A stretch of DNA of 64,000 bases from the NCBI RefSeq assembly GCF_024204665.1, contig NZ_CP100355.1, forward strand, positions 3,143,451 to 3,207,450, given 5' to 3'. The notes below the pieces were generated by a model that worked only from the letters and a program-made list of their open reading frames with translations, was not told the origin of the DNA and made no database searches. This document shows positions 53,408 through 61,864 of the stretch, piece after piece. The stretch is from Natronosalvus rutilus. Its GTDB lineage: Archaea; Halobacteriota; Halobacteria; Halobacteriales; Natrialbaceae. The number at the start of each line of letters is the position of its first letter. Position 1 is the first letter of the stretch. The translations under genes and the position numbers were made by a program.

Positions 53408-53582
53408 CCGGCGCTCGGAACTCGTCGTGGACGCGAAAACACGGACAGGAACACGGACACCAGAGCACGAACAGCGAGCGCGACACAAGCGCACTCGAGT
53501 CGACCACTGTCTCGTCGAAGCGACAGCCATCCGAACCGATACCCCTAACTCGTTCGTCACGAACTGCCACCTGTTCGCAGCC

Positions 53583-54533
53583 GTGACCGCTACCGACGAC
53601 CGATCGGCCTACCAGCACCTCTCGAGCCTGCGGGCTCCGCGATCGGCTGCCGGCCGCTGGGCGCTCTGTTCGGCGGTCGCCTTCCTGTACAGCTGGTACG
53701 TCGCACTCGACCTCCACGGTGCCGCTCTCGGCCGTCCGTTCGACGGCGTCGTCGTCGATCCGTCGGCCCTGGCGAGTGGACTCGAGGTCGTCGCGCTCGT
53801 CGTCGGCGCGTTCTTCGTCGTCGCCGTTCCCCACGAACTCCTCCACGGCGCGGTCATGCGCTACTTCGGCGGCCGACCGCGCTACGGCATCCGGACGGCC
53901 CGGTTCGGGATTCCCTACGCCTACGCCGAAACGCAAACCGACTACGGCCGCAACCAGATGGTCGCGATCCTGGTCGCCCCCATCGTCGTCATTTCGGTCG
54001 TCGGATTCGCGCTCGCGGTCGGCCTGGACGCCCGATGGCCGCTCGTCCTCCTCGCCGCCAACGTCGCGGGATCTGTCGGGGACTGCTGGATGGCCAGCCG
54101 GCTGCTCGAGTACCCCGAGTGCGTTCGCGTTGGGCCGCCGCCGGCCGATGGGGGCGGGAACGAAGGTGGAGACGGCGACGAAGATGGGGCCGAGAATAGG
54201 GACGAGGACGGAGCACTCGCAATCTACAGCCGTTCCGCAATCCCCCAATCGAGGTCGCCCGCTCGAGTCGTCCACTCCTTTCTCGTCGGGACCGTCGGAA
54301 CGGTCGTCGTCCTCGCGCTGGCGCTCGTCGTCCTCGTGTTCGCCTCGCTCGCCTTCGATTCGGGTGCCGTCGTACTCGCTGACGGCGACGGGAACTGGCT
54401 CCTCTTCCGTCACGAACCGACGGCTGACCGGGGCGTATTGATCGAGGTCGGCCACCGCGTCGTCGCGGCGCTCGGAGCGGTGGGTGGAGTCCTCTGGCTC
54501 GGCGTCGGCAGGGGACTCGAGGCGCCACGTTGA
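53583..54533 (+). CDS. DUF3267-type membrane metalloprotease
   Basis: 316 aa (GTG at 53583). Helices near residues 20-40 and 55-82; the zinc motif HELLHG (~85) follows in VVAVPHELLHGAVMRY, with further helices near 120-140, 140-155 and 240-265. DUF3267 proteins are intramembrane zinc metallopeptidase-like proteins of unknown substrates. A Gly/Glu/Asp-rich cytoplasmic loop (~185-205) is a halophilic insertion. An ATG in a better context was not found, so the exact start is uncertain. Confidence 0.75.
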   Translation: MTATDDRSAYQHLSSLRAPRSAAGRWALCSAVAFLYSWYVALDLHGAALGRPFDGVVVDPSALASGLEVVALVVGAFFVVAVPHELLHGAVMRYFGGRPRYGIRTARFGIPYAYAETQTDYGRNQMVAILVAPIVVISVVGFALAVGLDARWPLVLLAANVAGSVGDCWMASRLLEYPECVRVGPPPADGGGNEGGDGDEDGAENRDEDGALAIYSRSAIPQSRSPARVVHSFLVGTVGTVVVLALALVVLVFASLAFDSGAVVLADGDGNWLLFRHEPTADRGVLIEVGHRVVAALGAVGGVLWLGVGRGLEAPR

Positions 54534-57490: not shown

Positions 57491-59254
57491 ATGGTTTCGT
57501 CGAGTACCCGTCTCGTCATCAGTATTCTTCTCGTCTTCGTCGTGACCGTGGTCAGTGTCACGGGAATCGTCGCCGGTGCCGCGGCGATTGCCGCGGAAGA
57601 CGACAGTAGCGATGGCTCGAGTGCAGGCACGCTCCTCGACTCGGCGACCCTGTCAGTCGATTACCTGGACGACGACTTATATGGCGATTTAGACGACGAT
57701 CTGGACGACGAACTCGAGGAGACGACGAACGAGACGGACAACGACACGACTGACGTCAGCGAAAACGTAACTGAGGGTGCTGACGATACCACCGACTCCG
57801 TCGAAAATACGACGGAAGAGACGACTACCGATACGACCGATACTGTCGAGAACACGACCGATACTGTCGAAAACACGACCGACGGGACCACTGAGGCAGC
57901 CAACGACTCCGGCGACACGGTCGAGAATACGACCGATTCGATAGAGACGATCGCCGATACGGCAGAAAACACTACTGAAACCGTCGAAGACACCGCCAAC
58001 GAGACGGTCAGCACCGTCGAAAATGCGACTGACGAGACGACCGACGCAATCGAGGACACGGCCGACGAGACGACTGACTCGATCGAGAATACGACTAACG
58101 CGTCCACTGAGGTAATCGGGGAGACGACTAACGAGACCACTGGCGCAATCGAGAAAACGACCGACGAGATTGATGACACCACGACCATCGACCCCGTAAT
58201 CGAACTCGAGACCACGACCACGACAACGCTCACGGGCACTCCCCTGCTCGAGACGCGACTCGACGCCGATGTGAGCGTCGACGCGTCCGTCGGTGACACG
58301 GACTCCGATGACGACGCAGACGAATCACTCGAGGGAACTGAGACGGAGGTCGACGGGGCACCTGACAGGAACGAAACCACCGAAGGCAGCGAGAATCGAG
58401 ACGACGACGCCACGACCATCACCGACGATAGCGGATCCGGATTCGGCTCCGCCTCGAGTCCCGAGTCACAAAATGCCGTCAACGGTGTGCTCGTTGGGTT
58501 ACTCGGTGCGATAGCCGTGTCGGGAATGGGAGCTAGCGCCGGTGCCGGTGCCGGTTCCGGCGCTGCTGCCGGAGTAGGTGCTAGTGCCAGTGCGAGCGCA
58601 ACGAGCGCGGTCGCCAGCTGGACCGGCCGCCAGCCTCGTCGATGGCTGGCCCTGCTCCGGGGCGTGCTTCCGATCGAGGCGCTGGCTCTGCTCCGGTACA
58701 GCCGCTACGACGACTCGGATCCGCTCGAGAACGACCACAGGCGAACCGTCTTCGACACGATCACCGAGGAGCCGGGACTGTACCTCTCGGCGCTCAGCGA
58801 CCGAAGCGGCGTCGCCCTGTCGACCGTTCGCCACCACGTCCGGGTGCTCGAGGACGAGAATCTGCTCACTTCGGTCAAGGTCGGCGGTAAGCGGCGCTAC
58901 TTCCCGATCGAGACGGACGGGACAGACGGGATGGACGGAGTGGGCAGGACGGACGGGGCCGACCACGAGCGATACGCCATCCTCGCCGAACCGGCCCGCC
59001 GACGGGTGCTCGAGGAACTGGCCATACTCGAACACGCACCCAACGGGCGCCTCGCCGAGGCGCTCGACCTCGATCCGAGCACCGTCTCCCACCACCTCTC
59101 GACGCTCGAGGAGGCGGGCTTCGTCGTCCGCGAGCGGGACGGGCGGGCCGTCCGCAATCGACTCTCGGACGACGCCAGGTCGGCCCTGATCGAGACCGAG
59201 GCCGACGCCGACTCGAGCGATCCGGCGTCGGCTCCGGCCCCGGCGGACGACTGA
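57491..59254 (+). CDS. Membrane-anchored winged-helix protein with glycosylation-rich stalk
   Basis: 587 aa. A signal/helix at residues 9-35 is followed by an exterior stalk (~65-235) built from repeats such as DTVENTT; at least 14 N-x-S/T sequons lie here. A second helix/Gly-Ala-Ser-rich stretch (~330-375) leads to two winged-helix domains (ITEEPGLYLSALSDRSGVAL near 415; LEELAILEHAPNGRLAEALD near 505, both ArsR-like with VRHHVRVLE and VSHHLSTLE recognition helices). The sequence implies an exterior domain joined to a cytoplasmic DNA-binding tail. It may act as a one-protein signal relay; topology is inferred. Confidence 0.8.
   Translation: MVSSSTRLVISILLVFVVTVVSVTGIVAGAAAIAAEDDSSDGSSAGTLLDSATLSVDYLDDDLYGDLDDDLDDELEETTNETDNDTTDVSENVTEGADDTTDSVENTTEETTTDTTDTVENTTDTVENTTDGTTEAANDSGDTVENTTDSIETIADTAENTTETVEDTANETVSTVENATDETTDAIEDTADETTDSIENTTNASTEVIGETTNETTGAIEKTTDEIDDTTTIDPVIELETTTTTTLTGTPLLETRLDADVSVDASVGDTDSDDDADESLEGTETEVDGAPDRNETTEGSENRDDDATTITDDSGSGFGSASSPESQNAVNGVLVGLLGAIAVSGMGASAGAGAGSGAAAGVGASASASATSAVASWTGRQPRRWLALLRGVLPIEALALLRYSRYDDSDPLENDHRRTVFDTITEEPGLYLSALSDRSGVALSTVRHHVRVLEDENLLTSVKVGGKRRYFPIETDGTDGMDGVGRTDGADHERYAILAEPARRRVLEELAILEHAPNGRLAEALDLDPSTVSHHLSTLEEAGFVVRERDGRAVRNRLSDDARSALIETEADADSSDPASAPAPADD
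57838..57879 (+). repeat. 21-nt tandem repeats in the stalk-coding region
   Basis: GATACTGTCGAGAACACGACC and a near-identical following copy encode DTVENTT twice. Degenerate copies continue to about 58180. They suggest growth of the stalk by slippage or unequal exchange. Confidence 0.5.
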
Positions 59255-59377: not shown

Positions 59378-61864
59378 GTGGAGCTAATTATCACGGAGAA
59401 GGACAACGCGGCGAGACGTATCGCGGACATTCTGAGCGGCGAGTCTGCCGACGCGACCCGCGAAAACGGCGTGAACGTCTACGAGTGGGGCGGCAAGCGC
59501 TGCGTCGGGCTGTCGGGCCACGTCGTCGGCGTCGACTTCCCGCCGGAGTACTCGGACTGGCGTGACGTCGAACCCGTCGAACTCGTCGACGCCTCGATCG
59601 AGAAGACGCCCACGAAGGAGAACATCGTCGCGACGCTTCGTATCCTGGCCCGCCAGGGCGACCGCGTGACCATCGCGACCGACTACGACCGCGAGGGCGA
59701 ACTCATCGGCAAGGAAGCCTACGAGATCGTTCGCGAGGTCAACGAGGAGGTTCCGATCGACCGCGTTCGATTCTCCTCGATCACCGAAAACGAAGTCCAG
59801 AGTGCGTTCGCCGAACCCGACGAGATTGACTTCGACCTGGCCGCGGCGGGCGAGGCGCGCCAGATCATCGACCTGGTCTGGGGAGCCGCGCTCACCCGGT
59901 TTCTCTCGCTGTCGTCGGGCCAGCTCGGCAATGACTTCATCTCCGTCGGGCGAGTCCAGAGCCCCACCCTCAAGCTAATTGTCGACCGCGAGCGGGAGAT
60001 CGAGGCCTTCGACCCCGAGACCTACTGGGAGCTGTTCGCCGACCTGATCAAGGATGACGACCCGTTCGAGGCCCAGTACTTCTACCTCGACGAGGACGAC
60101 AACGAGGCCGAACGCGTCTGGGAGGAATCGGCGGCCGAGGGCGCCTACGAGACGCTCTCGAGTGCCGACTCGGCGACGGTCACGTCGGTCAACGCACGAA
60201 CGCGGACGGACACACCGCCGGCGCCGTTCAACACGACGCAGTTCATCCGCGCGGCGAGCGCCATCGGCTTCTCCGCGAAGCGGGCCATGTCCATCGCGGA
60301 GGACCTCTACACCGCCGGCTACATCACCTACCCTCGGACTGATAACACCGTTTACCCCGACGACCTCGAGGCCGAGGAACTGCTCGATTCGTTCGTCGGT
60401 CACCCAGTCCTGGGCGAGTCCGCCGAAGACTTGCTCGAGGGCGACGGCGACCTTGTTCCCACGGAGGGCGACGAGGAGACGACCGACCACCCGCCGATCC
60501 ATCCAACCGGCGAGATTCCAGCCCGCGGCGGAGACGTCGACGAGGACGAGTGGCGGGTCTACGAACTGGTCGTCCGTCGGTACTACGCGACGGTCGCCGA
60601 GCCGGCGATCTGGGAGCACCTCAAGGTGGTCGCCGAGGCCGACGGCCGTCAGCTCAAGGCCAACGGCAAGCGACTCGTCGAAGCGGGCTACCACGACGTC
60701 TACCCGTACTTCAATACCTCCGAGAACTACGTCCCCGCCGTCGAGGAGGGCGAGGAACTCGCCATCGGCGACGTCGAACTCGAGGAGAAGGAGACCCAGC
60801 CACCGCGGCGATACGGCCAGTCACGCCTCATCGAGACCATGGAGGACCTCGGTATCGGAACGAAGAGTACCCGACACAACACCCTCGAGAAGCTCTACGA
60901 CCGGGGGTACATCGAGAACGACCCACCACGACCGACCCAGCTTGCCATGGCGGTCGTCGACGCCGCGGAGAACTACGCCGACCGCGTCGTCAGTGAGGAG
61001 ATGACGGCCCAGCTCGAAGCCGACATGGACGCCATCGCGACGGGCGAGGCCACCCTCGAGGACGTCACGGACGAATCCCGCGAGATGCTCGAGGCCGTCT
61101 TCGAGCAGCTGCGGGCCTCCCGCGACGAGGTCGGCGATCACCTCCGTAAGTCGCTGAAGGCAGACAAGCGACTCGGTCCGTGCCCCGACTGTGGCGAGGA
61201 CCTGCTCGTTCGTCGGAGTCGCTACGGCTCGTACTTCGTCGGCTGCGACGGCTACCCCGACTGCGAGTTTACCCTGCCGCTCCCCTCGACGGGCAAGCCC
61301 CTGATCCTCGAGGAGACCTGCGACGACCACGACCTTCACGAGGTGAAGATGCTCGCCGGGCGACAGACGTTCGTCCACGGCTGTCCGCTCTGCAAGGCCG
61401 AGGAGGCCGGCGAGGGGCCGGTGCTGGGTGCGTGTCCCGATTGTGGTGAGGAACACGGCGGCGAACTCGCGATCAAGACGCTCCAGAACGGCTCCCGGCT
61501 GGTCGGCTGTACCCGCTACCCCGACTGCGAGTACTCCCTGCCCCTCCCGCGCCGGGGGGACATCGAGGTCACCGACGAGCGCTGTGACGAACACGACCTG
61601 CCCGAACTCGTCGTCCACAACGGCGACGAGCCCTGGGAACTGGGCTGCCCCATCTGTAACTACCGCGAGTTCCAGGCTCGAGAGGCCGAGAGCGGGTCGG
61701 CCCTGGAGTCGATCGAAGGAATCGGCGCGAAGACCGTCGAAAAACTCACCGCGGCCGGGATCGAGTCGATCGACGACTTGCTCGAGGCCGATCCGGAGTC
61801 GCTCGCCAGCACGGTCGAGGGCGTGAGCGAGGATCGCGTCCGGACCTGGCAGACGGCGGCCTGA
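59378..61864 (+). CDS. topA: DNA topoisomerase I
   Basis: 828 aa. TOPRIM domain: ELIITEKDNAARRIA at the start and TDYDREGELIGKEA near residue 107; active-site Tyr in AGYITYPRTDNT near 315. The C-terminal part has zinc-finger pairs (CPDCGEDLL near 605, CDGYPDCEF near 627, and CPDCGEEHGG near 685, CTRYPDCEY near 708), then a helix-hairpin-helix (SIEGIGAKTVEKLTAAG near 774). It relaxes negative supercoils. GTG start is supported by the ribosome site at 59364-59371. Confidence 0.95.
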   Translation: MELIITEKDNAARRIADILSGESADATRENGVNVYEWGGKRCVGLSGHVVGVDFPPEYSDWRDVEPVELVDASIEKTPTKENIVATLRILARQGDRVTIATDYDREGELIGKEAYEIVREVNEEVPIDRVRFSSITENEVQSAFAEPDEIDFDLAAAGEARQIIDLVWGAALTRFLSLSSGQLGNDFISVGRVQSPTLKLIVDREREIEAFDPETYWELFADLIKDDDPFEAQYFYLDEDDNEAERVWEESAAEGAYETLSSADSATVTSVNARTRTDTPPAPFNTTQFIRAASAIGFSAKRAMSIAEDLYTAGYITYPRTDNTVYPDDLEAEELLDSFVGHPVLGESAEDLLEGDGDLVPTEGDEETTDHPPIHPTGEIPARGGDVDEDEWRVYELVVRRYYATVAEPAIWEHLKVVAEADGRQLKANGKRLVEAGYHDVYPYFNTSENYVPAVEEGEELAIGDVELEEKETQPPRRYGQSRLIETMEDLGIGTKSTRHNTLEKLYDRGYIENDPPRPTQLAMAVVDAAENYADRVVSEEMTAQLEADMDAIATGEATLEDVTDESREMLEAVFEQLRASRDEVGDHLRKSLKADKRLGPCPDCGEDLLVRRSRYGSYFVGCDGYPDCEFTLPLPSTGKPLILEETCDDHDLHEVKMLAGRQTFVHGCPLCKAEEAGEGPVLGACPDCGEEHGGELAIKTLQNGSRLVGCTRYPDCEYSLPLPRRGDIEVTDERCDEHDLPELVVHNGDEPWELGCPICNYREFQAREAESGSALESIEGIGAKTVEKLTAAGIESIDDLLEADPESLASTVEGVSEDRVRTWQTAA

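Follow-up and report, generated by a model that had tools for sequence, protein, structure and literature searches.

A candidate membrane-tethered tandem winged-helix regulator with a sequon-rich stalk, conserved in salt-loving archaea

Transmembrane transcription regulators (TTRs) such as ToxR, CadC and TcpP combine a DNA-binding domain and a membrane span in one chain and by design use no separate kinase; in ToxR and CadC the DNA-binding end is N-terminal. In SREBP and ATF6 processing, two successive cleavages free a transcription factor. Metal ligands of ArsR/SmtB repressors are Cys close to the recognition helix, or Asp/His within the final helix. To our knowledge, the kinase-free conversion of surface events into transcription has been little studied in haloarchaea. 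A census defined TTRs as single chains with a predicted DNA-binding domain and one or more predicted membrane segments, and counted 1,384 archaeal TTRs; in the portion of its text consulted, none of the named families resembles the regulator described here (PMC10269533). ArnR and ArnR1 of Sulfolobus, which regulate surface structures, are also archaeal membrane-bound one-component HTH regulators; both are phosphorylated by a kinase, and ArnR has an N-terminal HTH, a putative HAMP and sensing domain and two C-terminal spans (PMC6396743). A halobacterial membrane-bound regulator, arCOG00381, has been named (PMC4858521), and HVO_0163 is described, in the excerpted text, only as being of ArsR type and increased by hypochlorite (PMC10294847). 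Control was stated as unknown both for secreted halolysins (PMC6085418) and for gas-vesicle clusters without gvpDE (PMC4390858). In titles and abstract openings of the open-licence literature (subscription papers and supplements lay outside this scope), no description of a family such as the present one was found.

The window analyzed here is a stretch of 64,000 nucleotides within a 4.3-Mb genome, the relatives of which are haloarchaea. It carries an open reading frame of 587 codons with an ATG start at 57491-59254 (+), exactly the coordinates given by an earlier sequence-only reading. In order, the protein comprises an N-terminal signal, an acidic stalk of 304 residues, a second hydrophobic segment (aa 332-350) and two winged helices. 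The features are as follows.

57491..59254 (+): whole gene of the putative membrane-tethered tandem winged-helix regulator, 587 aa (ORF, domains, same-genus orthologues 77% identical)
57512..57595 (+): N-terminal signal or first hydrophobic segment, aa 8-35 (Kyte-Doolittle 2.85; AlphaFold helix 4-25)
57614..58180 (+): sequon-rich stalk with 11-residue helical period, aa 42-230, probably outside (98-degree power, sequon excess, tandem arrays)
57932..58174 (+): predicted long rod helix, aa 148-228 (AlphaFold, pLDDT block means 52-78)
58181..58477 (+): acidic flexible linker, aa 231-329 (helical period absent; pLDDT <50 nearly throughout)
58484..58540 (+): second hydrophobic segment, putative membrane span from out to in, aa 332-350 (Kyte-Doolittle 1.79)
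58541..58693 (+): Gly/Ala/Ser-rich stretch and basic juxtamembrane helix, aa 351-401 (charge; AlphaFold helices 380-392 and 395-401)
58697..58729 (+): juxtamembrane motif YSRYDDSDPLE, aa 403-413 (conservation)
58730..58921 (+): winged helix 1 (PF24266), aa 414-477 (Pfam; C-terminal structure model)
58973..59185 (+): winged helix 2, ArsR/SmtB fold, aa 495-565 (NF033788; CzrA 6cda)
59378..61864 (+): topA, 123 bases downstream of the regulator, a neighbor in its own genus only (Pfam)

The signal helix proposed earlier is present, the best 19-residue Kyte-Doolittle mean being 2.85 at aa 9. Pfam and NCBIfam searches of the N-terminal half gave nothing convincing, and apolipoprotein, phasin and ZorA models stayed below cut-off. 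A bacterial promoter scan was uninformative, the host being an archaeon. The regulator precedes topA in all five same-genus loci (L038-L042); topA as a partner was rejected, since it adjoins the regulator only in this genus.

Computation covered the architecture and its conservation, the sequon excess, the helical period, the charge flip, the folds of the winged helices and the neighbors. A full-protein search of 61 relatives, own genome included, matched 48 genomes at E<=1e-5; the weak matches were mostly to the winged helices alone. The C-terminal alignment was built from a first comparison set of 19 loci with long frames (the window and L038-L055) and searched against 243 genomes of the order, 80 of which had matches at E<=1e-25, a count that takes in soluble relatives. 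A single-sequence scan of named genome contigs returned no relatives. The alignment scan of named contigs returned 61 loci, reduced to 57 haloarchaeal ones after four bacterial loci (L209-L212) had been dropped. Merged with further loci, these gave a family set of 93 distinct members; domain scores <110, exact duplicates and short-frame matches (short or soluble versions, e.g., in G114, G164, G168, G178, G240, G230, G214, G160, and G194) were left out. Orthologues of the same domain order had been proposed as a check, and all four parts of the window protein were found together in 82/93 members, a ratio that, owing to the rows left out, is not a population frequency. Among the remaining 11, nine had no signal found (contig end, broken frame or short form), one had no stalk and one a short stalk. 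The four-part architecture is widely conserved in salt-loving archaea. Among the 82 full members, stalk length varies between 138 and 1272 residues, with a median of 240, and the stalk sequences can hardly be aligned, whereas conservation is strong in the winged helices and the YSRYDDSDPLE motif. The longest stalk belongs to a protein of 1532 aa (L052:4178-8773, +). The window genome also encodes a 239-aa relative (L002, G000:C1:1142252) with two hydrophobic segments, a tandem winged helix and almost no stalk. Soluble relatives with two winged helices occur in the same genomes as the membrane form; they have no signal, stalk or span and lack most of the juxtamembrane motif, and two from the same genus (L056 and L057) have neither signal, stalk nor the YSRYDD part.

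Winged helix 1 was assigned to HTH_HVO_0163_N (PF24266) at aa 414-477, with a whole-protein score of 47.7 against a cut-off of 31; above this Pfam cut-off it is shared with soluble tandem winged-helix proteins of the HVO_0163 type. Winged helix 2 matched HTH_20/HTH_5 in Pfam (aa 498-547) and HTH_metalloreg in NCBIfam (NF033788, aa 495-565; 84.6 bits against 55). The nearest folds of the C-terminal structure model were ArsR/SmtB and MarR repressors, with CzrA 6cda at Z 13.2 (rmsd 1.9, 93 residues aligned) and SmtB also matched; as the Foldseek and VIA lists were filled by winged helix 2, these searches barely tested winged helix 1. Two ArsR-like winged helices had been claimed: two are present, but only the second is clearly ArsR-like. 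It is kept in 19/19 alignment rows, contrary to the absence in orthologues that, if this was the helix meant, had been named as evidence against the reading. In contrast to CzrA and SmtB, the protein has no Cys in its 587 aa and no His after the wing, and its ArsR/SmtB-like domain is fused to a rod and another winged helix. Metal sensing was rejected, the ligands being missing. Directly before the winged helices, Y403, S404, R405, D407, D410, P411 and L412 are invariant in 18 rows, and the motif pattern recurs in 79/82 full members.

Of 18 Asn residues in the window stalk, 15 lie in N-x-S/T (x not P), compared with 5.6 expected from shuffled stalk letters (p = 0.0005), in agreement with the 14 or more sites read earlier; none of the four Asn in the C-terminal half does. 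For the 82 stalks pooled, 539 sequons were observed versus 210 expected, with 76/82 stalks above expectation and 55/82 at p<=0.05. Thus, 539/795 Asn (68%) are in sequons in the stalks versus 19/244 (8%) in the inner halves; comparison proteins gave 1/9 (one MutS), 3/21 (one TopA) and 0 to 18% (five secreted subtilases). The stalk would be glycosylated, as the sequon excess suggests; four of the 82 full members (L171, L172, L177, and L201) are sequon-free, so glycans would not be essential to the family. The repeating DTVENTT units were recovered as six regex matches, three of them exact, and the stalk DNA contains tandem arrays of 21 and 33 bases.

The earlier reading had described the stalk as repeating; the repeats stand, but part of the stalk is now predicted to be helical. 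Mean autocorrelation of V, I, L, M, and F over the 82 stalks peaks at 4, 7, 11, 15, 18 and 22 residues, a hendecad pattern; an 11-residue tandem repeat need not by itself give peaks at 4 and 7. In the pooled stalks, power is highest at 98 degrees per residue (z about 20 versus 100 shuffles), and a further peak near 164 degrees is another harmonic of the 11-residue repeat. Sequons lie about 154 degrees from the hydrophobic stripe, with an excess vector of 437 versus a maximum of 98 in 100 shuffles, in which sequons were held fixed and hydrophobic positions shuffled. Individually, 39/82 stalks have the period at p<=0.05 and 32/82 at 0.01, and in 43/82 it is weak or absent; in the window stalk, 98-degree power is high in windows from aa 42 to 228 (p=0.005 for the stalk) and lost from there to the membrane. 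Because members and repeats are related, the p values overstate significance. This helical period of the stalk is new here. An AlphaFold model from 18 sequences gave one 81-residue helix (148-228), disorder to 329, a short low-confidence helix at 330-344, and both juxtamembrane helices and winged helices; with an overall pLDDT of 56 and pTM of 0.32, the model is only a hint. The sequon-rich part is accordingly predicted, from periodicity and model, to be a helical rod with glycosylation sites on one face. A mucin-like disordered stalk was rejected for that part of the window stalk on the helical period and AlphaFold, and kept for the linker.

With a probability of roughly two in three, the gene encodes a membrane-tethered one-component transcription regulator, its rod outside and its DNA-binding end inside. 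Winged helices and a Kyte-Doolittle membrane segment in one chain agree with the TTR sequence definition, and the regulator is best read from its sequence as a new variant of TTRs. Compared with ToxR, CadC and TcpP, its DNA-binding end is C-terminal, behind a signal, and its putative ectodomain is a sequon-rich rod without a recognised ligand fold. Compared with ArnR, the order is the opposite (signal, rod, one span, two winged helices), so that it does not share the ArnR layout.

We infer dimerisation, DNA sites and a signal for the regulator in the following way. A Sec-type signal would export the N-terminal half, and the second hydrophobic segment would stop transfer, leaving the two winged helices in the cytoplasm. 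Outside, N-glycans would sit on the side of the acidic helical rod opposite its hydrophobic stripe, leaving the rod able to form a coiled-coil pair. In the cytoplasm, the tandem winged helix would bind DNA close to the membrane, probably in dimeric form. An external change, be it association of rods, clipping or contact with a partner at the surface, may then alter pairing and, with it, promoter occupancy. The most likely targets would be the regulator's own promoter and nearby genes, in several lineages those for secreted proteins. Since the helical period ends about 100 residues before the membrane in the window protein, rigid twisting transmitted to the DNA-binding end is doubtful, and the non-helical linker of that length favors association, local concentration or clipping. 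With such an architecture, a surface event could act on genes directly, perhaps without a kinase, as the sequence-only reading had proposed; that reading is partly supported here. The family is a conserved single-gene candidate for a surface-to-transcription link with a testable layout and an unusual putative ectodomain, a helical rod with glycosylation sites on one face.

The stalk would lie outside and the winged helices in the cytoplasm, as the sequence-only reading had proposed; this topology fits the sequon excess, a charge flip at the second segment and an A-x-A-like site near the signal end (82/82 members, the pattern being loose). Net charge in the window protein changes from -3 before the second segment to +4 after it; across the full members it is negative before in 74/82 and positive after in 77/82, the other five being net 0 or negative after it. 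Membrane segments were called by Kyte-Doolittle hydropathy only. Absence of the second membrane helix from orthologues, another possible reading of the evidence named against the proposal, was not observed, a hydrophobic segment lying between stalk and winged helices in 82/82 full members, although the best-scoring stretch of that region is selected by rule, so that the value matters more than presence. This value is moderate in the window protein (1.79), ranges from 0.82 to 2.03, reaches at least 1.0 in 80/82 members, falls below 1.0 in two, and is weak especially outside Natrialbaceae. Such modest hydrophobicity and the long Ala/Gly stretch that follows would suit an arrangement with both halves on one side of the membrane, the second segment being no span or a Gly/Ala/Ser-rich third segment flipping the C-terminus. 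The conserved winged helices and their recognition helices, the basic flank after the segment and the contrast in sequons (68% to 8%) argue against this arrangement and make it very improbable.

The same segment is rich in small residues, with G336 and G339 nearly invariant, and its conserved glycines bear on release by proteolysis, in which an outside protease (in some lineages the neighboring subtilase) would clip the stalk and an intramembrane cut would free the tandem winged helix. A subtilase gene (PF00082) is the 5′ neighbor within 700 nt in 15/93 members, seven of these pairs being same-strand and eight divergent. On the tree, this label needs 7 changes and lies outside the gvp-linked group. 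With 5-19 subtilase matches per genome in seven genomes examined, chance adjacency is small. Homologues of rhomboid, S2P and SPP are known in Haloferax (partial text of PMC9263693), and a gene for a DUF3267 putative peptidase lies upstream in the window and in two same-genus genomes (L038 and L039); however, this neighbor occurs in only 2/5 same-genus loci and in 0/13 other loci compared. Nor is a subtilase found near the window gene or in gvp-linked Natrialbaceae, and the adjacency is more simply explained by the subtilase being a target, as a divergent or operonic gene more often is; release was given lower weight for this reason and is unlikely. By analogy with SREBP and ATF6, a secreted subtilase, whose gene adjoins that of the regulator in several lineages, might read or clip the glycan-faced coiled-coil rod, with intramembrane cleavage at the glycine motif freeing the tandem winged-helix factor. 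This version is more doubtful again; if true, cell-surface proteolysis would be written straight into transcription. Gas vesicles offer a further possibility, namely that the regulator serves as local control of gas-vesicle genes in place of the missing GvpD/GvpE.

For such control, gvpO lies within the fetched stretch in 30/93 members, typically as mutS, regulator, gvpO and in many Natrialbaceae. The gvpO-neighbor label takes 8 changes on the tree versus 25.5 in shuffles, the window genus being nested in that group, and a second group near gvp lacks mutS (L054, L121, and L122). The vac regions of Natrialba, Natrinema and Halopiger also lack gvpDE, their control being stated as unknown in the portions cited of PMC4390858 and PMC3403918. 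Against it, a gvpA-family gene is absent from 12/27 member-bearing genomes checked, including G001 of the window genus; G084 keeps mutS and the regulator though gvp is gone; and mutS stands near gvpO without the regulator in 11/20 fetched gvpO loci, that of the window genome included, so that inherited gene order suffices. Unlike GvpD and GvpE, the window regulator is not encoded in a gvp cluster, gvpO being 240 kb away. Compelling by synteny, gas-vesicle control fails on co-occurrence; the pattern reflects inherited gene order or, at most, a role restricted to certain lineages, and as a general reading gas-vesicle control is quite improbable.

Other neighborhoods were recorded as well. A dCTP-deaminase-like gene is the 5′ neighbor in 20/93 members. 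In nine members (L145, L146, L147, L192, L193, L196, and L197; also L053 and L148), an acidic signal-bearing protein, a candidate outside partner, is encoded 5′ of the regulator, on the same strand in 7/9. The DUF3267 putative zincin peptidase of the window (53451-54530, +), 3 kb upstream, contains HELLH as well as several hydrophobic segments. In the window genus, soluble relatives are found within runs of peptidase genes: L215 has two subtilases, the regulator and an M14-like peptidase, and L214 the regulator and an M14-like peptidase, M14 being assigned by reading the sequence. Eight subtilase matches occur in the window genome; a pair of them lies 126 kb from the regulator gene, with no regulator beside them. 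In L122 (G135), membrane and soluble forms are encoded next to each other, together with three subtilases and a gas-vesicle cluster. The gvp genes of the window genome are split, with gvpO and one gene of gvpA type adjoining mutS near 3.44 Mb (L076, G000:C1:3434500-3450500) and further gvpA/J-type genes near 3.57 Mb and, in one case, at 1.30 Mb (L080, L082, and L083), unlike related genera, which have a single gas-vesicle cluster.
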